Part shown: piece by piece, positions 515 to 38,763 of the stretch
Layout of the letters: the number at the start of each line of letters is the position of its first letter
Position numbering within the stretch: the first letter of the stretch is position 1
Source of the DNA: a virus
Length of the DNA: 64,000 bases
Strand: one strand, 5' to 3'
Virus record (IMG/VR): IMGVR_UViG_3300032331_003609
Coordinates: 62,001-126,000 of that record
The notes under the pieces: model-generated
The model's input: only the letters and a program-made list of their open reading frames with translations
Told to the model about the DNA's origin: nothing
Database searches by the model: none
Made by a program: the position numbers and the translations under genes

Positions 515-1741
515 ATGGTCTGGAATTACAAAGACACATTGCTAGTTCACGTTGAGCTTTCTAATATGTGTAATGCTGCTTGTCCGCTTTGTCCAAGATA
601 CGTGAATAACTCATTAAGAGTCAATCCCGAGCTTGATTTGGGTAGTGTTTCATTAGAAGATTTTAAAAAATGGTTCCCCTTAGATTTTGTTCAGAAAAGT
701 AAAAGCTGGATATTTTGCGGAACCAATGGTGATCCTATAATGGCAAGGGATGTTTACGAAATACTGGAATATGTACTTCGCAATTCGGAAGCGAAGGTTC
801 AGGTAAACACTAACGGATCCATCAGAGATGGGGAATTTTGGGAAAAAATGGGAGCATTATTTGCAGAACCCTGTGTCAATAGTAGATACGTTGTTTTTTC
901 AGTCGATGGATTGGAAGACACAAATCACATCTATAGAAGAAACGTCAAATGGGATAGGGTGATGGAAAATATGGGAGCATATTCCAAATCGGGTTCTACC
1001 GGAATTTGGGATTTTTTAATATTTAAACACAACGAACATCAGTTAGATGAGGCAGAGGCACTTTGTAAAAAAATAGGATTAGCGTTTTCTCCAAAAAGAC
1101 CTTTCGGGTTTGAGACAGGAAACCCAGATGAATATCAGGATCTAATGGTTTATGATTTAGATGGCAATTTTTTATACAGGATAGAACCTGCTAGCGAAGA
1201 GTGGAGATTAAACAGATCCCTCAATAAATTTCAAAAAGGGGAAGAAAAAATATGGGTTCCCGGGAAGGAGAAAAAAAGTAAGGATCAGACAGAAGAAAAA
1301 TGGAACGGATTAATAGAAAGAGATCTTCCTAAATATCAATTTCCAGAAAGATTCAAGGGAAAATCTGTTAGCTGTAAATCATGCCATCCTATAGGAAAGG
1401 AAATATACGTTGACTGTAAGGGTAATGTTATGCCTTGCTGTTTTGTAGGAACAATGTACAATAGTGATTTTCAACACCACGAAGCATTGCAGATCAAAAA
1501 GCACTTACAAGATTGGGGGTTAGATAAAATAAATTTAAACAACCATTCTCTTGAAGAAATATTAGACAGCAAGTATTTAGACGATGTATTTGCAAATAGA
1601 TGGGATGGTGCTAAAAAGGATGAGGATAAAATGGGATATTGTTTCAATACATGTTCGGTTGATCATATGAAAGACCTTTTCGTTAGAAAGGAGGAATTAC
1701 CTATATCCCCGGAAAAACACGAGATAAAAAGTCTTATATAG
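515..1741 (+). CDS. Radical SAM protein with C-terminal Cys cluster
   Basis: A 408-residue protein with the radical SAM signature CNAACPLC at residues 19-26 (CX3CX2C), which binds the catalytic [4Fe-4S] cluster and cleaves S-adenosylmethionine. A second Cys-rich region near residues 286-312 contains CKSCHP and MPCC, and CFNTC follows near the end, consistent with a SPASM- or twitch-type auxiliary cluster. Such proteins modify peptides or sugars; the substrate here is unknown. It is the first gene of a plus-strand run shared with the duplicated GT-like protein and the SDR enzymes. The start is the ATG behind an A/T-rich leader. Confidence 0.8.
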   Translation: MVWNYKDTLLVHVELSNMCNAACPLCPRYVNNSLRVNPELDLGSVSLEDFKKWFPLDFVQKSKSWIFCGTNGDPIMARDVYEILEYVLRNSEAKVQVNTNGSIRDGEFWEKMGALFAEPCVNSRYVVFSVDGLEDTNHIYRRNVKWDRVMENMGAYSKSGSTGIWDFLIFKHNEHQLDEAEALCKKIGLAFSPKRPFGFETGNPDEYQDLMVYDLDGNFLYRIEPASEEWRLNRSLNKFQKGEEKIWVPGKEKKSKDQTEEKWNGLIERDLPKYQFPERFKGKSVSCKSCHPIGKEIYVDCKGNVMPCCFVGTMYNSDFQHHEALQIKKHLQDWGLDKINLNNHSLEEILDSKYLDDVFANRWDGAKKDEDKMGYCFNTCSVDHMKDLFVRKEELPISPEKHEIKSLI

Positions 1742-1769: not shown

Positions 1770-4265
1770 ATGAACAATACTATAAATTTAGTTTATGATG
1801 ATTGGCCATTAGATCAGGATCATCCCAATCCTAATGGTGATAAATATTTTCCCGAACCTAATGCGTGGATGACAGGAGATGGTCCGATGGAAACCCTTAG
1901 ATATGATAATTATGTTCACAGAAGAATGGAGGACGTTGATAAGTATCAAGAGGAAAATTTCTTCTATGTTGTTTGGCATAGGCATTCTCTATACAATAGA
2001 TTTTTGCACTTTGACAGACTACCGATAGGTGATGACATGATTGGGCATTTTCAAAGAAAGCCTAATTTATTTCTTCTTTTGATAAATGATCAGGAAATCG
2101 AACCAAGAGAAACCATAAATAAACTTGATTTAGCTCTTGAAAGAAATAATATAGATCCAAGAAAAGTATTTTTAGTTAACAACAATTCAAGAAACTGGGA
2201 ATATAAAAGAGAACTTGGAAGTAACATCAATGTTCATAGCTGTAGAGCAATGCCCCTAGCTCTTGCAAAAACCCCCAAAAGTGTTTTCGTAGAGAATAAA
2301 GAGGGGTCATTTTTCATGTCACATAATCATTCTTTGAGAGAAAGCAGATCTGCTTTTGTTTGCCTTCTTAAGAAATATAATTTGATTGATGATTTTGATT
2401 GGTCCTATTTAAAACTCTGGAGAATGCCAACACAGGACTGGGAGACAATCTATAGAAGGATATTTAATGACTCTGATATGGAATTTTTAATGCCTGAGAT
2501 TGAATATTTCAATGCGTACGGGGTTAAGAAAAGCAATTATGAATCACATTTTCCATGGCTTGATGAAATAACCATGGATAGTCCTTCCTGGTGGGAAACA
2601 TTTAATCCTCAGCAGTACGAAAATACTTATTTCAATGTGACTGTAGAGACCCAATATTTCGGAAGGGATCTTCATATAACCGAAAAATCATTCAAGCCGT
2701 TTATACATTTGCAATTTCCTATGATACTAGCTTCTAGACATCATATTAAACATATGCGTGAATATTATGGCTACGATTTCTTTGATGATGTAATCAATCA
2801 TGATTATGATAACGTTAAGAGCGATAGAGATAGAATTTTTAGGTTTATAGAGGAATTAAAAAGGATTCAGGAAAATAAAGAATTCTTCATAGAATTTTAT
2901 AAGAATAATAAAGAAAGATTCTTAAAAAATCAAGAAATGGTTTATTCTTTTACTAATGAATATGATGCCAGCTATTTTTCTGCACTAACAAAATTTGATC
3001 ATCCAAAGGAAACGCTTAATTTAGTTTATGATAATTGGGACATGGAGACTAATCGTCCTATAAGGGGAAACTCTGAAGACCTATACACTAATACTTTTCA
3101 TATGAATTTGGATAGCGTTGTAGGATCACTTCAATTTGATAGGAGATTAATCAGAAGATTCAGACTAGAGGACGTTCCAAAAATGAAAAATCAAATATTT
3201 TTCTATTTCATAACTTTAATCCCCGGTATTTTATCCGAAAATATAAAAGCAGGGAAGCTTCCGATAAACAAAGATGCTATTAACACACTAAAGGAGTGTC
3301 CAAACTTTAATGTTATAATAATGAATGAACAGGAAGCTGAGAGGAAAGAAGCATTGGTACTTCTAGACAAATGGACAAGAGAAACAGGATTAGATCAGGG
3401 GCAAATATGGTTTTCCAATAACAATCCAAGGCTTGAAGAATTTAAGGAAGAAATAGGAACGGGAATAAACGTACATTCGACTGTTAGATTAGCTAACTTC
3501 ACTGCTAATTCTGTTATACATTCTGTAGGTAGAGTGGAATTTAAACCTAATAAAGATGGTGAATTTTTTATGTGTCATAACAGAAGACCAAGACCACATA
3601 GATATGGACTACTTTGCTTGCTTAAAAAGACAGGAATTTTAGAAGATGTTGATTGGTCCTTAGTTCAAGGATTTCAATTCAAGGATAATAAACACCCAGA
3701 AGCATTCTTTGGAGAAATATTCAACGGTGATGATATAGCAAATATGAGAGAAGAGATTGATTATTTTTCTAGCATCGAACAAAAGAAAAGTAGATATGAA
3801 GAGGAAAGAACATGGTTTGATGACAGAGATAATGAGAATAATGTTCCATGGAATGAAACATACGATAAGAATCAATTGGAAAATTCCTATTTTAATATCA
3901 CGACGGAAACGGAATTTGCTTCTGATTTAACACATATATCTGAGAAATCGTTTAAATCGTTTTGCGCAATGCAATTTCCATTAATACTTGCATCTGCACA
4001 TCATATTAGAGAAATTAAAAAGAAATATGATTTTGATTTCTTTGATGATGTTATCAATCATGATTATGATGAGGAGGAAAATCACAGAGATAGACTTTTT
4101 AAATTTGTTAAAGAGATAAAAAGAATAAATGACAATAAGGAATTCTTTATAGACTTTTATAAAAATAATAGGATGAGATTTGAAGAAAATTTAAGAAAAA
4201 TAGAAGAGAAGGTTAAGGATCAAACGGATTCAGATTTTCTTAAAAAAATATCAGGCATAATATGA
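1770..4265 (+). CDS. Internally duplicated GT-like protein
   Basis: An 831-residue protein made of two homologous halves, about 1-410 and 414-831. Each half begins with a (I/L)NLVYD(D/N)W block. Each ends with the module ITEKSFKPF or ISEKSFKSF, then QFPLILAS or QFPMILAS, HHI, and FFDDVINHDYD. The same C-terminal module appears once in the protein at 29713. It resembles the donor-binding region of GT10 (fucosyltransferase-like) proteins, but I cannot prove the family. The stop codon overlaps the next start by 4 bases, so it is translationally coupled to the SDR/oxygenase gene. Function is inferred only from this context. Confidence 0.7.
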   Translation: MNNTINLVYDDWPLDQDHPNPNGDKYFPEPNAWMTGDGPMETLRYDNYVHRRMEDVDKYQEENFFYVVWHRHSLYNRFLHFDRLPIGDDMIGHFQRKPNLFLLLINDQEIEPRETINKLDLALERNNIDPRKVFLVNNNSRNWEYKRELGSNINVHSCRAMPLALAKTPKSVFVENKEGSFFMSHNHSLRESRSAFVCLLKKYNLIDDFDWSYLKLWRMPTQDWETIYRRIFNDSDMEFLMPEIEYFNAYGVKKSNYESHFPWLDEITMDSPSWWETFNPQQYENTYFNVTVETQYFGRDLHITEKSFKPFIHLQFPMILASRHHIKHMREYYGYDFFDDVINHDYDNVKSDRDRIFRFIEELKRIQENKEFFIEFYKNNKERFLKNQEMVYSFTNEYDASYFSALTKFDHPKETLNLVYDNWDMETNRPIRGNSEDLYTNTFHMNLDSVVGSLQFDRRLIRRFRLEDVPKMKNQIFFYFITLIPGILSENIKAGKLPINKDAINTLKECPNFNVIIMNEQEAERKEALVLLDKWTRETGLDQGQIWFSNNNPRLEEFKEEIGTGINVHSTVRLANFTANSVIHSVGRVEFKPNKDGEFFMCHNRRPRPHRYGLLCLLKKTGILEDVDWSLVQGFQFKDNKHPEAFFGEIFNGDDIANMREEIDYFSSIEQKKSRYEEERTWFDDRDNENNVPWNETYDKNQLENSYFNITTETEFASDLTHISEKSFKSFCAMQFPLILASAHHIREIKKKYDFDFFDDVINHDYDEEENHRDRLFKFVKEIKRINDNKEFFIDFYKNNRMRFEENLRKIEEKVKDQTDSDFLKKISGII

Positions 4266-5959
4266 AAACAGTATTAATTACCGGATGTAACGGTTTAGTC
4301 GGAAGTTATCTTAGGGATATGTGTCTGAATAACGGATGGAAAGTTATTGGGGTCGATAGGAATTCGACGAAAAGAATCACAAAGAATTTAAATTACACAT
4401 TTAAAAAACTTGATCTTCTTTCAGAGATTAACATAATAAATTTATTTAAAGATTATAAATATGATGTTGTTTTTAATTGCTTTGGAATCAAAGGATCTCC
4501 GATAAAAGCAAAAGATAATCCGGCAGATTTTCTATATCCATCATTTAAAATAAACACCGAAATAATAAATCAGTGTTATCTGAATGATTCTTGGTTAGTT
4601 TTTGTCAGCTCTGTTGGTGTTTACAGTCCAGCAGAAAAATTCACGGAAGGAGATGTTTGGAAAACATTACCGTCAGAATCTGATTGGTTTCCTTCCTGGT
4701 CTAAAAGAATGGGAGAATTATTACTGGAATCATATAAAGTTCAGTATGGATACGATAAATGGACAATAGTAAGACCTGCAAATATTTTTGGGGAATACGA
4801 CGATTTTAGTGGAGGCGGAACCTTGATCTCAACGATGGTTAAAAAAGTATACGAAGCTAACGGAGAGATCGAAGCTTGGGGAGATGGTACTCCAATCAGA
4901 GATTTTATCTATGGAAAAGATGTCGCGTCTGCTTTAATTAAAGTGTATGAAAGAGGAGTAAGAGATATAGTAAATTGTGGATCTGGTATTGAGGTATCAA
5001 TAAAAGAGGTTATAGAAGAAATAATAAAAGCAAGCGGTAAACAAATATCTATCAATTGGAATTCATCCAAACCGAATGGGGATTTAAGAAGACTAATGGA
5101 CACAGATAAACAAGAGATACATGGTATAATGCCAGAAACTAAGTTTGAAGATGCTATTAAAAATGTATATGATTACTACATAAGATCTATTAAGGGGGAA
5201 GATCCAATAATACCAGCAAGCGATATATTAAAAGAAGGAGCATATTTGGGTAAAATATCAGATTTTTTAGAAGAAGACGAGCTAGAAAAATTCAAGGAAA
5301 TGATAAAATCAGTTAAAGAATATTCATCTGAAGATATAGAAAATAGACTTGTTTGTAGATATAATTATGACGATCTTGAAAATCCATATGATCATGCAAT
5401 TCCTCCAAGTAAAGTTCCGGAGAGGGATGCTTGGGTAAGGAAGAATAATTTTCATGTTTGGCAAAAGTGGTGGGAGTTTAAATACCCAGATCATGAATAT
5501 TTTGATAATATAGCAATTAAGATAATAAAGAATCTTTATCCCCAGGTATCGGAACATCTTGATAATCCTAGCAATGTAGATTCTAGGGGTAATATGGCAC
5601 TTTTTGAAGATGGACATTATATTGATATCCATAACGACGGAGCTAATGCTGGAAGATTATGTGTGATTATATTTTATTTATCTGACGAAAGCACATATCG
5701 TGACGGGGGTGGACAGCTTAAGATAATCACAAACTCAGGTAAAGAATGTTATATAGATCCATTTTTCGATAATTTTTGTGTTATGGATTTTGCTAGAAAT
5801 AATATAAAGCACGAAGTTAAGATGGTAAATAATGGATTTAAAAGGTACACGTATATAAATTTCATTAAATTCGAGGATAGCTCTCTTTTAGAAACTATCT
5901 TCCCGCCCATAGTAAAAGAGATTACTGAGACAAAAATAGAAAAGAAAAAAATAATATGA
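4262..5959 (+). CDS. SDR epimerase fused to 2OG-Fe(II) oxygenase
   Basis: A 565-residue two-domain protein. Residues 1-310 are an extended short-chain dehydrogenase/reductase with the NAD(P)-binding TGCNGLVG at 7-14 and RPANIFGE near 171. Residues 320-560 look like a 2-oxoglutarate/Fe(II) dioxygenase: the HND motif places H457 and D459, and a distal His is near 517 followed by a basic residue. The usual catalytic YxxxK of the SDR reads PSWSK, so the Tyr is missing. Likely role: making and hydroxylating a sugar nucleotide or a glycosylated target. It overlaps both neighbours by 4 bases, indicating a tight operon. Confidence 0.8.
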   Translation: MKTVLITGCNGLVGSYLRDMCLNNGWKVIGVDRNSTKRITKNLNYTFKKLDLLSEINIINLFKDYKYDVVFNCFGIKGSPIKAKDNPADFLYPSFKINTEIINQCYLNDSWLVFVSSVGVYSPAEKFTEGDVWKTLPSESDWFPSWSKRMGELLLESYKVQYGYDKWTIVRPANIFGEYDDFSGGGTLISTMVKKVYEANGEIEAWGDGTPIRDFIYGKDVASALIKVYERGVRDIVNCGSGIEVSIKEVIEEIIKASGKQISINWNSSKPNGDLRRLMDTDKQEIHGIMPETKFEDAIKNVYDYYIRSIKGEDPIIPASDILKEGAYLGKISDFLEEDELEKFKEMIKSVKEYSSEDIENRLVCRYNYDDLENPYDHAIPPSKVPERDAWVRKNNFHVWQKWWEFKYPDHEYFDNIAIKIIKNLYPQVSEHLDNPSNVDSRGNMALFEDGHYIDIHNDGANAGRLCVIIFYLSDESTYRDGGGQLKIITNSGKECYIDPFFDNFCVMDFARNNIKHEVKMVNNGFKRYTYINFIKFEDSSLLETIFPPIVKEITETKIEKKKII

Positions 5960-6931: not shown

Positions 6932-7834
6932 ATGAAAGGATTAATTTTTGCTGGATGTTCATTCACTTGGGGACAGGGATTGTATTACTATTCGGGTCTT
7001 GATACATTAGTTGAACCTGCACCAGATTGCTATGATGCTAAACTTGTTACCGATGCCCATAAAAAATATATGGAGACATTAAGATACCCAAGATTGGTTG
7101 CAAATCATTTTAAAACGTTTGAGGTTGTTTCTAAACAAAATGGAGGATCCGAAGAAACATCCGTACACTTTATAAATTCAGCATTTAATCCCGTTAATAA
7201 ATTTGATTTTCTGATAGATCAAACTTTCTCTTTTAGCGAGATCGAGTATGTAATAATACAAACTTCTCAGCCTAATAGAAATTCTTTTTATTTTGAATAT
7301 AAGGGAGAAGAGTGCCAATTTTTAATTCACGAGAAAACTACTAAGGGTAAGTTCTATGAATGGTTAATCGAAGAAAGAAAAATAACAATTGATGAATGGT
7401 TCGAAGATCATAAGAAGGATTATTTTGAAAAAATATCATCTTTAATGAAATTTCTAGAATCTAATGGGGTTAAAACAAAAATCCTTTGCTGGGAGGAAGA
7501 CTATTTAGATCTTATTAGATCTGATATTTTTATATACAATAGATTTATACCGATTAAATACAGAGATGAAAATTTTGATTCTATAAGAAAGATGATGGGT
7601 AAACATCCGCATCTCACTATAAATTCGGATTATGATAATTTTTCAGATCCCCCTAAGGATCATCACCCATCGAAAGAATGTCATCAAGTTATTTCTGAAT
7701 CTATAATTAATTCCATACAAAAAGATCTAGATAACAAAAAAGAATCTTACGTTTTTGACGGATCAAAAGAAGCGATAAAAGATTTTACTAGTACAATTCA
7801 ACCAATTAGAAAAAAAATAAAGAGTCTTATATAA
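6932..7834 (+). CDS. SGNH/GDSL-like protein
   Basis: A 300-residue protein beginning MKGLIFAGCSFTWGQG, a GDS-like block in which GCS replaces GDS. A DHHPSKECH segment near residue 244 could supply the Asp/His of the catalytic set. The SGNH fold usually carries esterases or sugar O-acyl hydrolases. An upstream TTG at 6923 is possible but overlaps the SDR gene; the ATG directly after the SDR stop is preferred. The 3' end overlaps the convergent radical SAM gene by 8 bases. Enzymatic function is inferred. Confidence 0.65.
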   Translation: MKGLIFAGCSFTWGQGLYYYSGLDTLVEPAPDCYDAKLVTDAHKKYMETLRYPRLVANHFKTFEVVSKQNGGSEETSVHFINSAFNPVNKFDFLIDQTFSFSEIEYVIIQTSQPNRNSFYFEYKGEECQFLIHEKTTKGKFYEWLIEERKITIDEWFEDHKKDYFEKISSLMKFLESNGVKTKILCWEEDYLDLIRSDIFIYNRFIPIKYRDENFDSIRKMMGKHPHLTINSDYDNFSDPPKDHHPSKECHQVISESIINSIQKDLDNKKESYVFDGSKEAIKDFTSTIQPIRKKIKSLI

Positions 7835-9272
7835 TCTTCTCCGGAGGATATGGGTATGTTCCTGTTTCAAAATGTGTTATTCTTCCATCATTCAAATTAA
7901 CAACAGGAATTGATTGATCTACTTTTATAGTTTCGTACCATTCTGATAATTCGGGAAACGTCTCTTTGAAATTTTTTCCTCTTCTGCTATCATACTGAAC
8001 ATAAAAGCTTTTGAAGTCGTGGTGTAACACTGATTTATCATCTTCTGTTGTTGTGTGACCTTTTTCTACTACCTGAAGATAATCTAACAGTCTTTGCATT
8101 TGTGCAAATTCCCCTACACTAAATAGATTAGGTGTCATTTTTTCGTTAAACCATTTACTTATTTTCGAATGAAGTTCTATCTTTATCTCGTCAGGTAAAA
8201 CTAAGGGTGACATGAATGCTGGCCATCTTAGAATATTAAGATCCACGTTTGGCTTATTAGCTCCATACTTCTTTTTTAATACTATCATATCATCTAAGAA
8301 ATCTGTAATGCTAAATAAACAAAGACTATTGATTGTCATCATGATGGTCAATGATCTTAACTTGGCTCTTTCTAACAAACTAACTAAATTGTTTCTCCAT
8401 GTTTCATACACCAATCCATCTCTAATATACTCTGCATGTCTTCCGTAAGATTCGTTGCTGGTATAGATGTCCATTTCTTTAATGTCCATCGTATTTGACA
8501 TCTCAATCATTTTTTCCAGTGTCTGTTCTGTCATCCCAAGATTTGAGTTAACAGCAAGCCTTAAATTAGGTGCAGGGCTGGATTTAAGTATTTCTATAAA
8601 ATCCCAAAAATTATGGCTTAATGAAGGTTCTCCCCCTGTGATTCTAATCTCTTCTAATGTTTGAGATAATTCTGGCCACCATTCAAAAAATGCTTGAACG
8701 AATGGATTTCTTTCGTTATGTTTTCCAAATATCTCTGACCAAGATCCATCACTTCTGTAAGCACCCGCAGAATCAGTTCTCATTTTTTGGTATGGACCAA
8801 ATTTCTGAATTTCCTTTCCCCATGTTGTGCTATATCCAGCATTACAATAACTGCAAGCAAAATTACACGTTCTGTCAAAACTTATTTCTAGGGTCTTTAA
8901 AAGAACATCATCTCTGTAATCCATTTCTTGAATTTTAGAAATGTCATCTTCGTCATAAATGATACTCTTATAAACCCTATCTGATACGTTATTTCTTCCA
9001 ATATCCTCTATCTTCCAGCAATATGAGCACTCAGCAGGTCTAATCCCAGTTAGCATCATTTTCCTCATCTGTTTCTTGTGCTTAGTATTATGGATTGCTG
9101 AGGGGTTTGTTTTTATCTCCTCCAGATCTATTGGGTGGGGAAGAGGTAGATGACACGAACCCGTATACCCGTGGCCAAGATGTATGCTTGCATTGTACCA
9201 TTTTGCTGCACAAAAGCTTTTACTGACCTTATTTAGATTCTTTTCTCTCCATTCTATTAGTTCTTTTGACAT
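7827..9272 (-). CDS. Radical SAM (twitch-type) protein
   Basis: A 481-residue protein, last gene of a reverse-strand operon. The cluster-binding motif CNFACSYC has cysteines at 136, 140 and 143, and the SAM-contacting ITGGEPSLS follows. The N-terminus carries extra cysteines at 21, 40, 82 and 85 in the blocks FCAAKW, GSCHLPLPHP and CSYCWK, all shared with its paralogue at 9850. This layout resembles phage radical SAM proteins with a twitch domain. Substrate unknown; the neighbouring glycosyltransferases and lectin-like proteins suggest glycan or protein modification. Confidence 0.82.
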   Translation of the reverse strand: MSKELIEWREKNLNKVSKSFCAAKWYNASIHLGHGYTGSCHLPLPHPIDLEEIKTNPSAIHNTKHKKQMRKMMLTGIRPAECSYCWKIEDIGRNNVSDRVYKSIIYDEDDISKIQEMDYRDDVLLKTLEISFDRTCNFACSYCNAGYSTTWGKEIQKFGPYQKMRTDSAGAYRSDGSWSEIFGKHNERNPFVQAFFEWWPELSQTLEEIRITGGEPSLSHNFWDFIEILKSSPAPNLRLAVNSNLGMTEQTLEKMIEMSNTMDIKEMDIYTSNESYGRHAEYIRDGLVYETWRNNLVSLLERAKLRSLTIMMTINSLCLFSITDFLDDMIVLKKKYGANKPNVDLNILRWPAFMSPLVLPDEIKIELHSKISKWFNEKMTPNLFSVGEFAQMQRLLDYLQVVEKGHTTTEDDKSVLHHDFKSFYVQYDSRRGKNFKETFPELSEWYETIKVDQSIPVVNLNDGRITHFETGTYPYPPEKII

Positions 9273-9281
9273 GTGTCTAAA

Positions 9282-9863
9282 TTATATTTGGTGTAAAAAA
9301 TTGCAATTATCTGTTAGATCATAGCTTTTACCGTGTATGAACTCTTCGAATATATGCTTACTTATAGTTTCTTCGTCTCTTATTATTTCCAATTCATGAA
9401 TATTTACCCCTAAATAATTCAAATTAAATCCATTTTTTGGAAAATTCCCTGCTCCAAAGATGATATGGGAATTTGGATCTGCTGCTAATTTATTATTTAT
9501 AAAGTAAAGTGTTAAAGCATTTCCGTCTATATAAACAGTAATCGCATCTTGACCTTTCGTTATCAGCAGTTCATATCTTACATTTGCTTCCCACTGGAAA
9601 TTACATGTTAGATATTCGGTTTTTCCTGTGCTGTCTGTTACTATTAATAGAATCCCATATTCCTCTAAATCTATTCCAAAATAGCTAGGCAATTTTGCAA
9701 ATAGCGTAGACTTCTTTGTTACTGGTTCATCAAGTTCGAACACAAGCTTAAAACTAAAATCACCTTCATAATCAAATATGTGATTAGCAGGATCTTTTAT
9801 AAATTTTTGACCTAATATATTAGGCCACATTATCCAGGGTTCTCCCTCTTTAATTTTTAACAT
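9282..9863 (-). CDS. Stand-alone concanavalin/LamG-like protein
   Basis: A 193-residue beta-rich protein with the pattern of a LamG/concanavalin A-like sandwich: NVRYELLITKGQDAITVYID, then IIFGAGN and VNIHELEIIRDE. Such domains bind glycans. No signal peptide or catalytic motif is visible. It lies between two paralogous radical SAM genes and its start overlaps the end of the upstream one by 14 bases. The same domain type is inserted in both GT7 proteins of this operon, so it may bind the same glycan that they build. Confidence 0.6.
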   Translation of the reverse strand: MLKIKEGEPWIMWPNILGQKFIKDPANHIFDYEGDFSFKLVFELDEPVTKKSTLFAKLPSYFGIDLEEYGILLIVTDSTGKTEYLTCNFQWEANVRYELLITKGQDAITVYIDGNALTLYFINNKLAADPNSHIIFGAGNFPKNGFNLNYLGVNIHELEIIRDEETISKHIFEEFIHGKSYDLTDNCNFLHQI

Positions 9864-11235
9864 CTTCGTAGAATTTTTTTAACTCGGGAAATGTCTTTAA
9901 AAAGTCAGTTCCTCTTCTTTTATCATGTTCGTCAACAAATGCTATAAAATCTTTTCTATTTTTTTCAACATCAAATCCGTCATCTGATATAGCATAATCA
10001 TAAGTTCTTTTTATCTTCTGTATTTCAACATCAGAGAATCCGTAATTATCATGATTGAATTCCGGTGTTGCATAATAGAATGCTTTTTGTGCGGCTTTAA
10101 ATATAAGCTCTTTATGTTCATCATTTAGGATTTTAACAGATTGATGCTCCGGCCATCTTAAATATGATGTATCAAGCTGTATTGCAGAAATCCAATATCT
10201 TTCCTTGTTCTGATATTTTTTCTTTAGCTGGAATATTTTTTCTATCAATTTAGAATATCCGAATACAGACATAGCATTAAAGGTTGCCATAACGTTCACT
10301 GTCACCTTTGGTAATTCAGATAAGATCATTTCTATGTTTTCAAAGAAGTGGTCAAAATCGAGCCCAAAACGTATGTACTCTGCTTGTTCTTTCCATGCTT
10401 CACATGACGTAAATACTATAAGCTCATTTACCCTTCCTTCTTCTATTATTTTCTTGCAAAGGCCAACAAATTTTTCCACCAAATTCTTAGGAATTCCGAG
10501 ATTAGTATTAATTGACAGATTTAAATTTCTATTAGGCTGGTCAGTGTTTGCTATGAATTCTAATAGCTTCCATGTATCCTTAGATAAAAGAGGTTCTCCT
10601 CCAGTTATTCTAAATGTGTGAAGATCCTGATAGAGATCTGGCCACCATTCCCAGAATGCTGCAACATAGGGATTTTCTTCCGAATGCTTATATGGTATTT
10701 GTCCTGTTTTTCTTGGCCAATCAAGATCGTTAAAATTTGTGGATGTTGGATATCCCCCGTGGGTTTCTATTTCTTCCATCCACTTAGATGAAAACATAGG
10801 ACTACAGTATGAGCATTTAAAGTTGCACGTATTGGAAAAATTAACTTCTACGTATTTTGGATTATAATCTTCGCTCCATCTTGATTCTTTAATTTCTTCC
10901 ATGTGAGGAAAGGACCAAGGTTCTGAGCTTTTAAAAATTCTATCAGAAAATGATTCAGAGTTATCTTCCACCTTCCAACAGTAATTACACTCTTCCGGTC
11001 TTTTACCCATCAACATTTCTCTTCTTACCTTCTTTTTGTGTTTGGTATTATGAAGAGCGGATGGATTATTTTCTAGTTCAGAAAGAGGTACCTTATGTGG
11101 TATAGGATGATGGCAAGAATGTGTCATTCCGTTATGTAAATGCATAGTTACCTGTGTCCATTTAGCTAGGCACATTCCACATCCTGTAGAATTTAGTTCA
11201 TTTCTCGTCTCCTCAAAAATTCTTTGATCGCTCAT
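9850..11235 (-). CDS. Radical SAM (twitch-type) protein, second paralogue
   Basis: A 461-residue paralogue of the gene at 7827. The radical SAM cysteines are at 137, 141 and 144 (CNFKCSYC), ITGGEPLLS follows, and the same N-terminal blocks occur (CGMCLAKW, HSCHHPIPH, CNYCWK). Two diverged copies in one operon imply two related but distinct reactions or substrates. The ATG directly abuts the stop of the GT7 gene upstream (overlap at 11235). Role in glycan or peptide modification is inferred from context. Confidence 0.82.
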   Translation of the reverse strand: MSDQRIFEETRNELNSTGCGMCLAKWTQVTMHLHNGMTHSCHHPIPHKVPLSELENNPSALHNTKHKKKVRREMLMGKRPEECNYCWKVEDNSESFSDRIFKSSEPWSFPHMEEIKESRWSEDYNPKYVEVNFSNTCNFKCSYCSPMFSSKWMEEIETHGGYPTSTNFNDLDWPRKTGQIPYKHSEENPYVAAFWEWWPDLYQDLHTFRITGGEPLLSKDTWKLLEFIANTDQPNRNLNLSINTNLGIPKNLVEKFVGLCKKIIEEGRVNELIVFTSCEAWKEQAEYIRFGLDFDHFFENIEMILSELPKVTVNVMATFNAMSVFGYSKLIEKIFQLKKKYQNKERYWISAIQLDTSYLRWPEHQSVKILNDEHKELIFKAAQKAFYYATPEFNHDNYGFSDVEIQKIKRTYDYAISDDGFDVEKNRKDFIAFVDEHDKRRGTDFLKTFPELKKFYEDVKN

Positions 11236-16757: not shown

Positions 16758-17035
16758 AAAAAGAAATAAAAGAAAAAGCTAAAATGATAGCTAATGGAAC
16801 ATATACACCTCCCGAGAAGGAGAAGGTAGAATTGACTTTCGGGATAACAGAGAAGCAATATAAAAAATACCAAAGATGGCGAAATGCAAAAAAGAAAAAA
16901 GAAGGCGAACTTTATGTTGGTGCAATAGGTGGTGCATATTCATTCTGTTTCACGTCAACCGGTATTGGTGAGATAGTGACAGTGAAAGCAGCAGACGGTG
17001 ATGAATTAGATTTAACAGATTATAACACATGGTAA
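16754..17035 (+). CDS. Hypothetical protein
   Basis: A 93-residue protein with a basic helical N-terminal half (KEIKEKAK, KQYKKYQRWRNAKKKK) and a short beta-rich C-terminus with GAIGGAYSFCFTSTGIG. No family recognised. It is coupled to the phosphoesterase upstream (ATGA overlap) and to the HAD gene downstream, so it is expressed with them. Confidence 0.65.
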   Translation: MKKEIKEKAKMIANGTYTPPEKEKVELTFGITEKQYKKYQRWRNAKKKKEGELYVGAIGGAYSFCFTSTGIGEIVTVKAADGDELDLTDYNTW

Positions 17036-17634
17036 TGAAAGTAATATTTTTAGATCACGATGGTGTGATATGTCTTTCCAATAACTGGGGAGGCAGAGCA
17101 AAGAAACAGAAGGAATATGGCAGAAAGATGAGTCAATCTATTAATGAACTTCCGGTAGAGGTTAGATTTGACGATTTTGACAAAAAAGCTATTGACGTTC
17201 TTAATTTAATTTTAGAAGAGACAGGAGCTGAAATAGTAGTGAGTTCAGATTGGAAGCGCTGGGCTTCAGCAGATGAACTTGGAGAATATTATGAACAGCA
17301 AGGTATTATAAAAAAACCAATTGCCTGCACTCCTTTTTTTAGGGATCTTCAGGCTGCAGGTAAAATACCAGGGTATGATGATTTTGTATGGAACAGAACA
17401 GATCAATTGGAGCAAGAAAGACATTTTGAAATTCTTGAATGGTTAAAAGAACATCCAGAGATAACACATTGGGTAGCAATAGATGATTTGAATATGGGTA
17501 TACCGGTTAGCACACATCACTACGGAGATTTTGATAGAGAATGGGGTTTAACAAATTTTGTTTGGACACCACAGGAATCCGAGGGAATCAAACAATCGGG
17601 TAAGAAAGAAAAGATTTTAGAATTTTTAAAATAA
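17035..17634 (+). CDS. HAD-family phosphatase-like protein
   Basis: A 199-residue HAD protein starting MKVIFLDHDGVICL, in which DHD is the nucleophile motif I. EIVVSSDWKRW is motif II-like and THWVAIDDLN is the acidic motif IV. It resembles the HAD domain of the Swiss-army-knife RNA-repair family, though it is single-domain here. The TAATG overlap with the preceding stop favours 17035 over an ATG 6 bases upstream. Probably a nucleotide or RNA-end phosphatase; the substrate is inference. Confidence 0.75.
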   Translation: MKVIFLDHDGVICLSNNWGGRAKKQKEYGRKMSQSINELPVEVRFDDFDKKAIDVLNLILEETGAEIVVSSDWKRWASADELGEYYEQQGIIKKPIACTPFFRDLQAAGKIPGYDDFVWNRTDQLEQERHFEILEWLKEHPEITHWVAIDDLNMGIPVSTHHYGDFDREWGLTNFVWTPQESEGIKQSGKKEKILEFLK

Positions 17635-18041: not shown

Positions 18042-18466
18042 GGGTCCGTCTGGCTTTGATCCGGATGCGAATGGTAATACTACACGCAGAGGTATGGTAC
18101 TCATCCTCTTTAATCTCGGTACAAACCAATAAACGACAACACAATAGCTCGTCAAGAAATCGGTGCATCAATTATCAACATGGCGTTTGCGAACGCTCCT
18201 GTTGCTTTAGCAGCGTAATTCTTCCCCTGGTGACTTGGGTGGAACAGTAAGTCATAAACCGGTATAGCAATATGCCAAACAGTTTTATCCTTTTTTACAA
18301 AATGGATTGGTGGTTAACGTACTTAAATCGTACGGCCCTTACTGATCAGCTTAAAACGTAGATCAAAAAATACGGAGCAGAATTAAAAACTCAGTTCTAA
18401 GCGTGTGAGACGTTAGTGTTATGATTACTTTCGGAGACAGGGGTTCGAATCCCCTCGGATCCACCA
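18042..18466 (+). ncRNA. ssrA: tmRNA (ssrA)
   Basis: A phage-encoded transfer-messenger RNA of 425 bases. The ends form a 7-bp tRNA-like acceptor: GGGTCCG at 18042 pairs with CGGATCC at 18456 with one G-T, followed by A and an encoded CCA. The T arm AGGGG-TTCGAAT-CCCCT is canonical. The 5' part TGGCTTTGATCCGGATGCGAA and the 3' TTTCGGA match the tmRNA consensus, and ACACGC pairs with GCGTGT in P2. An internal reading frame ends ANAPVALAA at 18189-18215, then TAA, the expected degradation-tag ending. The resume codon is uncertain; the frame is open from GCT at 18147. It rescues stalled ribosomes and marks their products for proteolysis. Confidence 0.92.
18147..18218 (+). other. tmRNA tag reading frame
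   Basis: In-frame codons from GCT at 18147 to TAA at 18216 would encode up to 23 residues, ending ANAPVALAA. The final ALAA is typical of tags read by ClpXP-type proteases. The true resume codon could lie further downstream, leaving 9-23 residues. Confidence 0.7.
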
Positions 18467-18472
18467 TTATAT

Positions 18473-18547
18473 CGTAGGGTAGAGCAGTGGTAGCTCGACG
18501 GGCTCATAACCCGTAGGTCGGAGGTTCGAATCCTTCCCCTGCAACCA
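18473..18547 (+). tRNA. tRNA-fMet (CAT), initiator type
   Basis: A 75-base tRNA with encoded CCA and anticodon CAT in the arm ACGGG-CTCATAA-CCCGT. It carries three hallmarks of bacterial initiator tRNA: a C1xA72 mismatch at the acceptor end (CGTAGGG against CCCTGCA), an A11-T24 pair in the D stem (GAGC/GCTC), and three consecutive G-C pairs below the anticodon loop. The T arm is GGAGG-TTCGAAT-CCTTC. It starts 6 bases after the tmRNA, so the two are probably one transcript. Two other CAT tRNAs at 28539 and 29072 lack these features. Confidence 0.9.
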
Positions 18548-27568: not shown

Positions 27569-27656
27569 GGAGAGATGGCAGAGTTGGTCGATTGCGTCAG
27601 TCTTGAAAACTGAAGAACGGGAAACTGTTCCGTGGGTTCGAATCCTACTCTCTCCG
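27569..27656 (+). tRNA. tRNA-Ser (TGA)
   Basis: Acceptor GGAGAGA pairs with TCTCTCC. The anticodon arm TCAGT-CTTGAAA-ACTGA gives TGA. A long class II variable arm and canonical TTCGAAT are present. Discriminator G; the next bases are CA rather than CCA. Confidence 0.92.
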
Positions 27657-27699
27657 CAGGCGCAATTTCGTACCTTATACAGATATAGGGTATGAATAA

Positions 27700-27771
27700 G
27701 CATCTTAAGCATTGCAGGCGATGCGCCAGATTTGTAATCTGGATAACTCGGTTCGATTCCGGGCGGATGCT
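27700..27771 (+). tRNA. tRNA-Thr (TGT)
   Basis: Anticodon arm CCAGA-TTTGTAA-TCTGG; T loop TTCGATT. Acceptor GCATCTT against CGGATGC has one mismatch at the inner pair. Confidence 0.87.
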
Positions 27772-27864
27772 CAATACTAACGTAAAATAAGTACACTAAC
27801 ATAATATCTGTTAGAATACAAAAGTTCGGTAGCAAGGTTATTAACGCGTTTTATAAAGATATAG

Positions 27865-27985
27865 GCCGGTGTGGCGGAATGAATAATCTTGAATTCGAAT
27901 AGAGATTATTAGACGTCCCGTAATTCTAGAAAAGGTGGTGTATCCGAAATGGACATCGTGAAGGTAGTCAACCCTTCCACCGGCA
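27865..27985 (+). ncRNA. Expanded tRNA-like RNA (Leu-like ends)
   Basis: 121 bases with a perfect 7-bp acceptor (GCCGGTG/CACCGGC), a GTGGCGGAAT start typical of tRNA-Leu, and a 5-bp stem GAAGG/CCTTC in the T position with the non-canonical loop TAGTCAAC. The D-loop position carries an inserted hairpin with 8-bp stem AATAATCT/AGATTATT. I cannot place a standard anticodon arm. Either a decayed tRNA with an insertion or a distinct tRNA-like RNA. Confidence 0.5.
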
Positions 27986-28000
27986 CCTTATTTAAGATAT

Positions 28001-28086
28001 TCTAAGAACAGCGTCGAGCCGGATTTTGCGTCGGTCTTAGATTAGATTTGTCCAATGGGAGAGCCGGCCGCGACCCCGGACAAATC
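28001..28086 (+). ncRNA. Two adjacent strong hairpins between tRNAs
   Basis: TCTAAGA at 28001 pairs with TCTTAGA at 28035. Three bases later GATTTGTCC at 28045 pairs perfectly with GGACAAATC at 28078. GC-rich loops (GCCGGCCGCGACCCC) stand out from the AT-rich surroundings. No tRNA fold is possible. Could be a processing signal or small RNA. Confidence 0.4.
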
Positions 28087-28094
28087 ACTATATT

Positions 28095-28168
28095 GGTTCT
28101 GTAGCTCAGTTGGATAGAGCGCCACCCTTCTAAGGTGGATGTCATTGGTTCGAATCCAATCGGGATCA
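28095..28168 (+). tRNA. tRNA-Arg (TCT)
   Basis: Anticodon arm CCACC-CTTCTAA-GGTGG; T arm ATTGG-TTCGAAT-CCAAT; D arm GCTCAGTTGGATAGAGC. The acceptor GGTTCTG/CGGGATC includes G-T pairs. Confidence 0.93.
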
Positions 28169-28179
28169 CAATTAAGGTT

Positions 28180-28304
28180 GATTGGGGAATGGTTATGTCT
28201 ATAGCTCGAGCGTGGATACTGGCTGGCATAATCGGAGTTTGGAGGTATTCACCTAAGTAATGCCAATCGTAAAAGAGATCGTCCACTGAACCATCTTTCT
28301 CTTT
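28180..28304 (+). ncRNA. Structured inter-tRNA region
   Basis: GATTGG at 28180 pairs with CCAATC at 28263, closing an ~90-base domain that contains CTCGAG and an AGGT/ACCT hairpin but no tRNA arms. A second hairpin follows, AAAGAGA (28272) with TCTCTTT (28298). No coding sequence. Function unknown. Confidence 0.35.
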
Positions 28305-28315
28305 CCTTAAAATAT

Positions 28316-28390
28316 GTTGGATGTAGCCTAATGGTAGGGCAAATGCTTGTGGCGCATTACGCGTGGGTTCGATCCCCATCATTCAACCCA
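28316..28390 (+). tRNA. tRNA-His (GTG)
   Basis: Anticodon arm AATGC-TTGTGGC-GCATT; T arm GTGGG-TTCGATC-CCCAT. It has G at position -1 and discriminator C73, the usual His identity elements, plus an encoded CCA. Confidence 0.93.
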
Positions 28391-28394
28391 ATAT

Positions 28395-28470
28395 CTAGAT
28401 GTAGAGGAGCCAAGTTTATCTCGCTGCTTTTGGAAAGCAGAGCACGCTGGGGCGGAGCCAGCCATTTAGA
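28395..28470 (+). tRNA. tRNA-Pro (TGG) with non-canonical T loop
   Basis: Acceptor CTAGATG/CATTTAG and anticodon arm CTGCT-TTTGGAA-AGCAG are sound, giving TGG. The T stem GCTGG/CCAGC is perfect but its loop reads GGCGGAG instead of TTCRAnY. Either a functional variant or a damaged gene. Confidence 0.65.
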
Positions 28471-28471
28471 C

Positions 28472-28534
28472 AAAAAGATCAAAGAGACCGCTAAATCGAG
28501 TTAGTGAAAATCTACATTCTCTTTGGTCTTTTAT
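28472..28534 (+). ncRNA. Long 15-bp hairpin
   Basis: AAAAGATCAAAGAGA at 28473-28487 pairs with TCTCTTTGGTCTTTT at 28518-28532 with a single G-T. The 30-base loop has its own CTAA/TTAG pairing. The T-rich end could make it a terminator for the preceding tRNAs, or it may be an independent small RNA. Confidence 0.5.
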
Positions 28535-28538
28535 ATTA

Positions 28539-28612
28539 GGACTTGTAACTCAGTTGGTTAGAGTGCAACACTCATAATGTTGAAGCCCCTGGTTCGAGCC
28601 CAGGCTGGTCCA
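28539..28612 (+). tRNA. tRNA-Met or tRNA-Ile2 (CAT)
   Basis: Anticodon arm CAACA-CTCATAA-TGTTG; T arm CCTGG-TTCGAGC-CCAGG. Acceptor GGACTTG/CTGGTCC has one T-T mismatch. It lacks initiator features. A CAT tRNA could also be a lysidine-modified Ile tRNA; the sequence cannot decide. Confidence 0.88.
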
Positions 28613-28627
28613 CGAAATAGTGTCTTG

Positions 28628-28691
28628 GTACGCTCTGAAGAAATTCAACGACAAGGTCTCGGTAAGCGAAACGCGTTCGATCTTGCCCAAA
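28628..28691 (+). other. Inter-tRNA hairpin region
   Basis: GACAAGGTC at about 28659 pairs with GATCTTGCC at about 28679 with one mismatch, enclosing a GCGAAACGC mini-hairpin and a TTCGATC that mimics a T loop. No complete tRNA fold found. Function unknown. Confidence 0.3.
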
Positions 28692-28698
28692 ATATAAA

Positions 28699-28780
28699 GG
28701 CCCCCTGTTGTAATTGGTAGCCAATTCAGATTTAGGATCTGATGTCGCAAGACGTGTCGGTTCGAGTCCGACGGGGGTCA
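28699..28780 (+). tRNA. tRNA-Leu (TAG)
   Basis: Acceptor GGCCCCC/GGGGGTC; anticodon arm TCAGA-TTTAGGA-TCTGA; class II variable arm TGTCGCAAGACGT; T arm GTCGG-TTCGAGT-CCGAC. Confidence 0.93.
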
Positions 28781-28827
28781 CAACAAGATTAGGTACAAAA
28801 AGATATTAAGAAACTAAACCTAAAAAC

Positions 28828-28837
28828 GATATATAAT
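28828..28837 (+). promoter_or_regulatory. GATATATAA-like box
   Basis: GATATATAAT, 15 bases before the tiny ORF at 28853. Confidence 0.45.
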
Positions 28838-28852
28838 ATTCAACTAAACAAA

Positions 28853-28936
28853 ATGAGAAACCAGAATCAATATAATTATTACCCAATGCCTGAACAAGGT
28901 AATGAGGGAAATTATATGGACACAGATCTGGGATAA
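28853..28936 (+). CDS. Tiny ORF, 27 residues
   Basis: Encodes MRNQNQYNYYPMPEQGNEGN and seven further residues, acidic and Asn/Gln/Tyr-rich. It has its own upstream box and a terminator 20 bases downstream, inside the tRNA array. Like the ORF at 27378, it is organised as a complete micro-gene. Confidence 0.45.
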   Translation: MRNQNQYNYYPMPEQGNEGNYMDTDLG

Positions 28937-28956
28937 CATTTTTTAAATATATTTTG

Positions 28957-28992
28957 AAAACCCAGATCTCAATAAGGTCTGGGTTTTTTATT
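28957..28992 (+). terminator. Intrinsic terminator
   Basis: AAAACCCAGATC pairs with GGTCTGGGTTTT, followed by T run. The same stem recurs at 35727. Confidence 0.85.
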
Positions 28993-28993
28993 T

Positions 28994-29066
28994 GGGGATG
29001 TAGCTCCAGCGGTAGAGCGCGTGACTGTTAATCACTAGGTCGTAAGTTCGAATCTTACCATCCCCT
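28994..29066 (+). tRNA. tRNA-Asn (GTT)
   Basis: Acceptor GGGGATG/CATCCCC; anticodon loop CTGTTAA; T arm GTAAG-TTCGAAT-CTTAC. Confidence 0.93.
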
Positions 29067-29071
29067 CAGAT

Positions 29072-29145
29072 TGCAAGATAGTTCATTTGGTGAGAACACT
29101 GGATTCATAACCCAGAGGTGATGAGTTCGAATCTCATTCTTGCGA
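29072..29145 (+). tRNA. tRNA-Met or tRNA-Ile2 (CAT)
   Basis: Acceptor TGCAAGA/TCTTGCG; anticodon loop TTCATAA, stem CTGGA/CCCAG with one mismatch; T arm ATGAG-TTCGAAT-CTCAT. Not initiator-like. Met elongator versus lysidine-type Ile cannot be decided. Confidence 0.9.
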
Positions 29146-29150
29146 CAAAT

Positions 29151-29222
29151 GCTCCCGTCGACTAGCGGTTAGGTCACCTCCCTTTCACGGAGGTAGCACG
29201 GATTCGAATTCCGTCGGGAGTA
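29151..29222 (+). tRNA. tRNA-Glu (TTC)
   Basis: Anticodon arm CCTCC-CTTTCAC-GGAGG; acceptor GCTCCCG/CGGGAGT with a terminal G-T; T arm ACGGA-TTCGAAT-TCCGT. Confidence 0.92.
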
Positions 29223-29227
29223 CAAAT

Positions 29228-29308
29228 TGGGATATCGCATAGTGGCAATTGCGGCTGACTGTAAATCAGCTCTCTTTGAGTTCGGCGGTTCGAGTCCGTC
29301 TATCCCAA
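29228..29308 (+). tRNA. tRNA-Tyr (GTA)
   Basis: Acceptor TGGGATA/TATCCCA; anticodon arm GCTGA-CTGTAAA-TCAGC; class II variable arm; T arm GGCGG-TTCGAGT-CCGTC. Confidence 0.92.
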
Positions 29309-29314
29309 CAATAC

Positions 29315-33562: not shown

Positions 33563-33635
33563 GCGGGAGTAGCTCATTTGGTAGAGCGATAGCCTTCCAA
33601 GCTATAGGTGGCCAGTTCGAGCCTGGTCTCCCGCT
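33563..33635 (+). tRNA. tRNA-Gly (TCC)
   Basis: Acceptor GCGGGAG/CTCCCGC; anticodon arm ATAGC-CTTCCAA-GCTAT; T arm GCCAG-TTCGAGC-CTGGT. It stands alone, outside the main array, directly after the GT-like gene. Confidence 0.94.
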
Positions 33636-33642
33636 CCGCCCT

Positions 33643-36534: not shown

Positions 36535-37143
36535 TTATTTTGAATGCATTTTTTTATCCGAGCATTTAATTTCAGATTTTTCCCATTCAACTAAAGGTCT
36601 TTCATTAGGAAAAGAAAAACATCTCCACTTCTTTTGTTTTTCGAAATAAATATGCTCTTTTAATATGGAGGGAATAGCAGCATTTGTCTCAACTCTTTTT
36701 GCTGGATTATCAAAAATTAAATCGATTATAACAGTAATACTTTCAGTATCATCCCATTTACGAATTTGTTCTTCAAGAAGTCTCCATTCTCCCCTATTTA
36801 GGTATTGGTTTTGTAATATACTATTTAAGTATGAAAAAGTTTGTCTAAGATTTTCCATATTATCAGAGAACGTTGCAGCAGGAGCTCCGTGACCTTTGTC
36901 ATAAACATTTGATCTATAGTCATCCTCGTCTGATGTTTTAATATTTGGCTCTTTATAGAAATCCATCGATCCTCTATTCACATTTGTTGGTCTATTAGTA
37001 GATCTATACTTGATCCATACTGGTTGTTCTAATTTTTGGGAATAAAGAATTTCAAAAACTTGATTCTTTACTCTAACTGTATCCTCTGCATTAACACCTA
37101 TTGATAGTGTTATAATTAATAATAATGCTAGAATTTTTTTCAT
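36535..37143 (-). CDS. Exported DNA/RNA non-specific endonuclease
   Basis: A 202-residue protein with an N-terminal signal peptide (MKKILALLLIITLSIGVNAE, likely cleaved after VNA). The Endonuclease_NS signature appears as YDKGHGAPAATFSDN (His at 85), and QNQYLNRGEWRLLEEQIRKW contains the metal-binding Asn. The family degrades DNA and RNA with a metal ion. Export implies action in the periplasm or outside the cell, for example on extracellular DNA or incoming competitor genomes. ATG overlaps the stop of the VWA gene. Confidence 0.82.
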   Translation of the reverse strand: MKKILALLLIITLSIGVNAEDTVRVKNQVFEILYSQKLEQPVWIKYRSTNRPTNVNRGSMDFYKEPNIKTSDEDDYRSNVYDKGHGAPAATFSDNMENLRQTFSYLNSILQNQYLNRGEWRLLEEQIRKWDDTESITVIIDLIFDNPAKRVETNAAIPSILKEHIYFEKQKKWRCFSFPNERPLVEWEKSEIKCSDKKMHSK

Positions 37144-38762
37144 CTGTTTAATTTTAATTTATTAACCGGAACATTTACATGTTTACCGAATGGCATCTTA
37201 TGACTAGTAGTCATTGCCCATATCATCTTTCTGTGCCATTTTGGTTTCTCTGGATCTTCTGCCCCTCCGTCAGTGAAGTAAATCATGCAAGCTAAATCTT
37301 TACCTTTTTTGATTAGATTTTCTTCTACCCACTTAATAGGAGGATCGAATCCACCTCCGTTACCCCCAGTAGACATTTGTTTAGATTTATCTAATGGCTG
37401 AGCTGCAGATGCTAATCTATCAATTCCTCCAGAAGGAGGTTCCATACCATCGCTGCAGTAAATGATGTATATCTCTTTTGGCTGGAACGTCTTTAATACA
37501 CTTCTAGATTCTGCTAAGAAAGTATTATATTCATCCTGACCTATACTTCCTGACGTATCAACTGCAATAACTACAGTTCCGAATCCCTCTTCCTTTCCCT
37601 TTAATCCCGGAAGATATATGTCTCTTGATGCATATCTTCTATTAGGTATCTTATACATAGTAGGATCATCATCAGATTCAGATACGTATCTTTGTAAAAT
37701 TTTTCTCCAATCAACCTGTGGGTTTACTAAGTCCTCTATGAATTTCCTAAGAGCCGGAGAAACCCCTCCGCCACCTGTTCCTTTATTGGCTGCTCTTTCT
37801 GTTATCTCCTGTATTTTCTTAGAAATGTCTTTTTTATCTACTGGTTCTTTCTTCTCTATTTTCTCGTCCCAGTCTTTTTTATCCTTGTCTTCACCTTCAT
37901 CACTCCACTCTTCACCAGGTTCTCCCTCTTCGTCAGATAGCTCACCGTCTTCTCCTTCACCATCTCCAGGTTCACCATCTTCACCCTCACCATCTCCGGG
38001 TTCGCCATCTCCAGGTTCGCCATCCCCAGGTTCGCCATCTTCACTCTCACCATCTCCAGGTTCACCGTCTTTACCGTCTCCCTCTTCATCAGATGGCTCA
38101 CCGTCTTCCCCTTTGTCATCTTCTTTACCGTCTTCCTTCTTTTTGTCAAATTCTTTTTTGTCTAATTCTTGATCTTCACCCCTTACAGAATCAAGTTCTC
38201 CCATTATTGTTTCCGATGTTTTTTCTGTGTTTATTTCACCAGGTTCTAAAACATCACAATATGATTTATATGAGCTGTCTCCTCCTGATTTTTCTAATTC
38301 AGAATATATTTCTTCTGCAGATTTTCCTTCAAATTTAGGATCTTTGTATTTAATAGGAAGTATAGATTTTCCTATTCCTTCTAAATATGGCTCAGCTGCT
38401 ATATCGCATGCTTGATTCCATATAGATTGATCCTTATCTTGTTTTCTATCAAAGTGCTGTAGTGCAAGATGTATAATCCCCTGGTTAATTGCCCAGATGA
38501 CTTCATCATCACTCATTTCTAGTACATTTTCTGGATTAAATATAAAAACAGTTCCATCAGTTGAAAAGAATTTGCATTCTTTAGAAACTGCTACTGGAAT
38601 TTCTGATAGTACATTTCCAAAAAATCCTCCTTTCATTAAGATTTTAGAAATACACCTTTTCACCTTCATGATGGATTTTTCGTAATCCTCCTGTGTCATT
38701 CCATAATTGGAAAAGTTTTCCTTTAATAATTGATACTCTTTAAAATTTCTTAGTCTTCTCAT
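37140..38762 (-). CDS. VWA-domain protein with metallopeptidase-like N-terminus
   Basis: A 540-residue protein. The N-terminus MRRLRNFKEYQLLKE resembles a T4 capsid-targeting leader. Residues 60-160 resemble DUF2201-type metallopeptidase-like domains (IIHLALQHFDRK), with the HExxH changed. Residues ~190-300 are acidic GDGEPGDG repeats. The C-terminal VWA domain has the MIDAS motif DTSGSIG near 400. Paired with the MoxR-like ATPase upstream (1 base apart), it probably forms a chaperone-like complex. The internal-head role is inference. Confidence 0.8.
   Translation of the reverse strand: MRRLRNFKEYQLLKENFSNYGMTQEDYEKSIMKVKRCISKILMKGGFFGNVLSEIPVAVSKECKFFSTDGTVFIFNPENVLEMSDDEVIWAINQGIIHLALQHFDRKQDKDQSIWNQACDIAAEPYLEGIGKSILPIKYKDPKFEGKSAEEIYSELEKSGGDSSYKSYCDVLEPGEINTEKTSETIMGELDSVRGEDQELDKKEFDKKKEDGKEDDKGEDGEPSDEEGDGKDGEPGDGESEDGEPGDGEPGDGEPGDGEGEDGEPGDGEGEDGELSDEEGEPGEEWSDEGEDKDKKDWDEKIEKKEPVDKKDISKKIQEITERAANKGTGGGGVSPALRKFIEDLVNPQVDWRKILQRYVSESDDDPTMYKIPNRRYASRDIYLPGLKGKEEGFGTVVIAVDTSGSIGQDEYNTFLAESRSVLKTFQPKEIYIIYCSDGMEPPSGGIDRLASAAQPLDKSKQMSTGGNGGGFDPPIKWVEENLIKKGKDLACMIYFTDGGAEDPEKPKWHRKMIWAMTTSHKMPFGKHVNVPVNKLKLNR
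37905..38105 (-). repeat. Acidic GDGEPGDG coding repeat
   Basis: Tandem 15-18-base units encode Gly/Asp/Glu/Pro repeats within the VWA gene. The opposite strand is also open as a Ser/Pro-rich frame, which is an artefact. Confidence 0.8.
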
Positions 38763-38763
38763 A

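Follow-up and report, generated by a model that had tools for sequence, protein, structure and literature searches.

A complete phage tmRNA gene with a long tag whose interior recurs in other viral tmRNAs

The reason that phages carry tmRNA is an open question, and tmRNA tags are usually viewed as short, loosely constrained degrons. The tags of Bacteroidota are short, at about 9 aa, and of the GExNYALAA type. The ssrA tag of Mesoplasma florum has about 27 aa, and the tag of mycobacteriophage Bxz1 is long too. The M. florum tag has a dedicated protease, M. florum Lon (PMC8138137). Phage tmRNAs are already known (PMC4131195; PMC7162821; PMC9004378). Lytic phages of the Bxz1 group and Bacillus phage G, which have other hosts than the phage described here, carry a complete tmRNA (PMC4131195). 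Huge phages, among them Lak and related megaphages, share related structural genes and tmRNA with our phage, and SmpB has been reported in huge phages (PMC7162821). Melnitz and the pelagimyophages are likewise T4-like aquatic phages with their own tmRNA, which differs from ours in its permuted two-piece gene, a riboswitch, and its relation to Alphaproteobacteria (PMC9004378). In a survey from 2021, 402 of 18,146 phage genomes had a tmRNA (PMC9004378). The original prediction for our locus, which called phage tmRNAs rare and named the Bxz1 group as a known case, was correct that they exist but too narrow, given this survey and at least 120 IMG/VR matches in the search described below.

We analyzed a 64,000-nt stretch of DNA (the window; positions 62001 to 126000 of a 244,850-bp virus record) in which a phage tmRNA with an unusually long, ALAA-ending tag had been predicted. 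ARAGORN called a tmRNA at exactly 18042-18466 (+), and Rfam model RF00023 matched the same interval over its full length (model positions 1 to 374, E 1.6e-29) with 80.3 bits, above its gathering score of 47. Both checks bore out the prediction and confirmed that 18042-18466 is a complete, one-piece tmRNA gene (ssrA) in a phage record. Like bacterial one-piece tmRNA (SsrA; RF00023), the RNA has an acceptor stem with a G.U pair, a T arm, CCA, pseudoknot 1 (PK1), a resume element, and an AA-ended tag with a stop. The predicted tRNA-like end is present in full: GGGUCCG (18042-18048) pairs with CGGAUCC (18456-18462) in an alanine-type acceptor stem that includes the G3.U identity wobble (G18044.U18460), and the 3' portion (18439-18466) runs from the T arm, AGGGG-UUCGAAU-CCCCU (18439-18455), through this strand to the encoded ACCA (18463-18466).

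PK1 (18089-18122) consists of stem 1, GAGG (18089-18092) with CCUC (18105-18108), and stem 2, GUAC (18097-18100) with GUAC (18119-18122). Across eight relatives, 64 of 64 pair cells were standard pairs, 11 of them changed on both sides, and none of 500 shuffles was equally good. Stem 2 took the forms GUAC/GUAC, GUUC/GAAC, GUAU/AUAC, GCAU/AUGC, and GUGU/ACAC. The RF00023 alignment continues through PK2 to PK4, but its confidence there is low and many pairs are broken. As a tmRNA reading requires, the tag frame comes after PK1 and before the downstream domain.

By the established rule, a resume codon sits 4 nt past an essential A, which is A86 in the UAGUC of Escherichia coli, and some 12 nt past PK1 (PMC2481249). 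The probable frame-setting counterpart of UAGUC in the window is UAAAC at 18130-18134 (+); GAC 18135 follows it directly, exactly 12 nt past PK1, with A18131 as the key A. An AAAC or AAAU (or CAAAC) directly ahead of the resume codon is common to most members of a tag family that we define here as family A (core R..EGA.II.MAFA plus an A.AA end). In most relatives (U/A/C)AAA(C/U) precedes GAC-AAC or GCA, and a minority of family A, the VKSQSER group, has AUAACC in its place. Because the spacing rule (PMC2481249) and this shared element point to the same codon, GAC 18135, 4 codons before ARAGORN's start, is the most likely resume codon. ARAGORN's GCT 18147 was rejected: it is 24 nt from PK1 and not common to the relatives, most of which have TCT there. 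Since translation would resume at GAC 18135, the tag frame (18135-18218, +) reads DNTIARQEIGASIINMAFANAPVALAA plus UAA, a tag of 27 aa (23 aa from 18147). The frame ends ANAPVALAA, and thus in VALAA, before the UAA at 18216-18218, as predicted. Thus, the claim of an unusually long tag held, while the start proposed at 18147 was probably 4 codons late.

The length of this tag sets it apart from bacterial one-piece tmRNA, whose commonest tag length is 10 aa (PMC11915505), and from the short tags of Lak (..NDDEIEFRMAA) and of LR756500 (GNNAEMRMAA), for which no SmpB was found. Its sequence is unrelated to that of the M. florum tag. No related tag was found in cultured phage records, and tblastn with the tag gave no match there at E 10, a weak test with so short a query. 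No PDB protein that the tag might mimic matched at E 10, where the short query again makes the test weak. An amphipathic helix was unsupported; the hydrophobic moment was reached by 0.56 of shuffles.

Pattern searches of IMG/VR with the tag recovered its frame in at least 30 viral contigs, and ARAGORN or Rfam confirmed most of these as tmRNA. The window tag fits family A, with the 14-codon core RQEIGASIINMAFA (18150-18191, +) and an ALAA end; it has I for the E of EGA, as do 11 of 32 family A members. Against L002, there were 4 base differences in 22 shared codons, all synonymous. Among 32 distinct relatives' tags, pS was 0.56 and pN 0.20 over the core codons, versus 0.63 and 0.56 over the first four tag codons. 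The F and the final A.AA were invariant across these 32 tags while codons and third bases varied. The conserved interior sits in tags of 25 to 29 aa, and the pseudoknot regions around the retained tag have diverged to 0.4 to 0.55 identity. Family A carriers and the window phage had few genes in common, these being about 35% identical, or none that we found. In a tree built from the RNA with the tag removed, the window fell inside family A with L024 and L028 (support 0.88). A scan of bacterial genome contigs for the shorter AFANVAVAA-type ends, a pattern distinct from the window's ANAPVALAA, gave 3 matches, none a tmRNA; the interior has been found so far in viral tmRNAs only. Judged from these sequences, the tag peptide is under selection in phages. 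That the interior is kept across many unrelated viruses suggests that the label has a role beyond that of an ordinary degradation signal.

We weighed whether the interior is kept as RNA, through structure or a base-pairing site, and not as peptide. The tag does overlap the start of the P5 hairpin, and some nucleotides (AACATGGC) change rarely. However, changes cluster in third positions, with ATT, ATC, and ATA all encoding Ile and one site using four different codons for Ala, and the first four codons vary freely. Thus, we consider RNA-level constraint very unlikely.

The main rival is the spread of one gene among phages. In that case this would be an ordinary phage tmRNA, in which rescue alone matters and the tag serves as a simple degron with an AA end, and the interior would be conserved through movement of the gene or of the tag segment among phages of the same hosts. 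About 35 bases (CTCGTCAAGAAATCGGTGCAT..ATTATCAACATGGC) are nearly identical in the window, L002, L003, L013, and L016, which fits recent transfer, and in E. coli rescue can proceed almost unaffected when the tag template is changed (PMC2481249). However, synonymous sites are near saturation across the family while residues hold, the pseudoknot regions have diverged as described around a kept tag, and several independent tag families are all long. We therefore regard this explanation as unlikely, though a serious competitor to a peptide-level role.

To control for bias, we ran a further IMG/VR search whose pattern covered just the 3' tRNA-like end and left the tag unused. Among the 80 loci listed from at least 120 matches, 45 had short tags, mostly ANDENYALAA-type host ssrA beside prophages, and 23 had long tags of about 20 to 30 aa. 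The family A core was present in 10 or 11 of these 23, for example, VKSQSERVEEGASIIAMAFASELALAA and AKTKSERVAEGGAIIASLFAGRVAVAA. The 9 distinct cores found without the tag gave a pS of 0.59 and a pN of 0.35, and bootstrapping put core pN/pS at 0.51 to 0.67, with synonymous sites near saturation. Core conservation is thus partly overstated in the larger set because those searches used the tag; the family A core is genuine but looser than the tag-based set implies. The backbone search also returned other long tag families, such as GNTSIWDVINGFVGAPATEVEYAVAA and GNVINKLSTIGLIRTEEVSVA. Further long phage tag families were seen as well, e.g., GNTFAKLEAFGLMSAERVAVA and GEKSTFSFEDAMSLVGAELAIAA (L148, L149, L156, L170, L179, L189, L194, L206, and L207). 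Shine-Dalgarno sites preceded 12 of 111 genes on long-tag contigs versus 104 of 298 on short-tag contigs (Fisher 5.5e-7; genes within a contig are not independent).

PHROGs in the record include T4-like tail fibers, a DnaB-like helicase, terminase, tail sheath, portal, head protease, and major capsid protein, and a megablast of the first 25 kb against cultured phages found no relative. The capsid, sheath, and helicase are nearest to those of Lak (Prevotella), Tenacibaculum, and Flavobacterium phages and uncultured megaphages. Bacteroidota genes do not use Shine-Dalgarno sites and have an A-rich upstream region. The window phage's genes have an A-rich upstream region and Shine-Dalgarno sites in 2%, versus 4% in shuffles; family A carriers make no Shine-Dalgarno use either. 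The nearest structural and helicase relatives, together with the lack of Shine-Dalgarno use, make a Bacteroidota host likely.

We then compared the tmRNAs of the window phage's capsid relatives. A search with the phage's capsid protein gave 200 viral relatives. Of 40 large contigs among them, 8 had a tmRNA over the cut-off, and none of the 8 had the family A tag. Their tags include GKTNVWDAINAFGAPVAEVEYAVAA, an example of another long tag family, GKKSVWDAINSFGTPVTEVEYAYAA, and the 31-aa ANVYNSEDIMSIPTSLTRSVVAEEVELAVAA, among others. In the RNA tree without the tag, their tmRNAs sat apart from family A (support 0.998). Because of this separation, the tmRNA gene has probably moved between lineages, like phage tRNA genes, as seen in one capsid comparison of incomplete genomes; such movement also favors the explanation by gene spread. 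Cultured Bacteroidota phages PTm1, pT24, and MA9V-2 and phage PAU had no tmRNA over the cut-off, and MaF61 had none.

Neither SmpB (PF01668) nor ClpP (PF00574) was found in the 244,850-bp record (G000), which is linear and may be incomplete. Therefore, host SmpB would be needed. The lack of a phage SmpB would also suit an inhibitory RNA, a decoy that titrates SmpB, for which the tRNA-domain-only RNA of mycobacteriophage DS6A is a precedent (PMC4131195, PMC11915505). However, a decoy needs no tag, while all tmRNA parts are present here along with a conserved tag frame and stop, and related huge phages supply extra SmpB. We consider a decoy extremely improbable.

Four huge capsid relatives (270 to 373 kb) encode tmRNA, SmpB, and full ClpP (G056 to G059; L333, L334, L335, and L337). 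In one, SmpB and ClpP are 0.9 kb apart, and a ClpA/B-type AAA+ protein is also present in 2 of the 4. SmpB and ClpP also occur in Lak and other megaphages, and those with SmpB also encode ClpP. One further contig (G041) encodes tmRNA and ClpP but no SmpB. In five family A carriers (G004, G008, G018, G019, and G015), a small ClpP-like gene lies upstream of the tmRNA at a distance of 3.5 to 5.4 kb, on the tmRNA's own strand; the sequences that were read show the Ser and His motifs. Of these 5, 4 are not independent because they share gene order. The ClpP and SmpB of the capsid relatives and these ClpP-like genes speak for a link of such tmRNAs to Clp proteolysis. Among capsid relatives, ClpP occurred in 5 of 8 with tmRNA versus 1 of 20 without (Fisher 0.003). 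ClpP as a general tmRNA partner was nevertheless rejected, as the tmRNA-bearing contigs are larger and related. A literature search that covered few subscription papers found no report of conserved long tags in phage tmRNAs or of tmRNA-SmpB-ClpP sets in phages, which is no proof that either is new.

We favor, as rather probable, a functional tmRNA that relies on host SmpB and whose tag combines a ClpX-type AA end with a second, putative phage-specific signal. Host alanyl-tRNA synthetase would charge the RNA through its G3.U stem, and host SmpB would bring it to ribosomes that have stalled on broken mRNA. Translation would continue from GAC 18135 and append DNTIARQEIGASIINMAFANAPVALAA before it stopped. 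Ribosomes would thereby be freed, and unfinished phage and host proteins would be marked. As first proposed, the RNA may rescue ribosomes during the late phase of infection or change the tags that host proteases read. The VALAA end would act as a degron of the usual ClpX type. A putative role as a second recognition element for a host or phage adaptor or protease most likely explains why the interior, RQEIGASIINMAFA, has been conserved; peptide-level selection in phages of Bacteroidota would have retained it. A broader proposal is possible but doubtful: phages of Bacteroidota may have their own degron language, in which a Clp-type protease chosen or encoded by the phage reads the long-tag interior apart from the host's short tag. 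The tmRNA, SmpB, and ClpP of the huge relatives would then form a rescue-and-degradation set, of which the window phage has the RNA part alone. The retention of an interior within tags of 25 to 29 aa in phages with few shared genes, together with the other long families, makes the question of why phages carry tmRNA testable. If the interior has a reader, the two would add a new degron-adaptor pair to Bacteroidota, a phylum for which few tools of this kind exist.

Several features near this tmRNA and its relatives were also observed. A tRNA-Met(CAU) gene (18473-18547, +; ARAGORN and Rfam) begins 6 nt downstream of the tmRNA and is probably on the same transcript. The second gene upstream (17029-17634, +) encodes a HAD-superfamily RNA-repair-type protein (HAD_SAK_2; PF18143, E 3.5e-22). 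In L032 (IMGVR_UViG_3300031952_000007), the T loop of a family A tmRNA at 3720-2950 (-) is apparently interrupted by a group I intron (RF00028, 96 bits, 3033-3307), with the T arm formed by CAGGGTTT.. before the intron and ..CGACTCCCTG after it. In the phage contig L021, a GOLLD RNA (300 bits) and a family A tmRNA lie about 1 kb apart, the two intervals being 9188-9591 (-) and 10640-11190 (-). Twelve further tRNA genes lie in the window at 27569-29309 and 33563-33637, with none in the other record stretches scanned. Several radical SAM proteins are encoded close together in the phage genome at 515-1741 (+) and 7827-11235 (-), near a sugar epimerase/oxygenase fusion at 4262-5959. At 37140-40254 (-), a MoxR-like AAA ATPase adjoins a DUF2201 VWA/metallopeptidase-domain protein.
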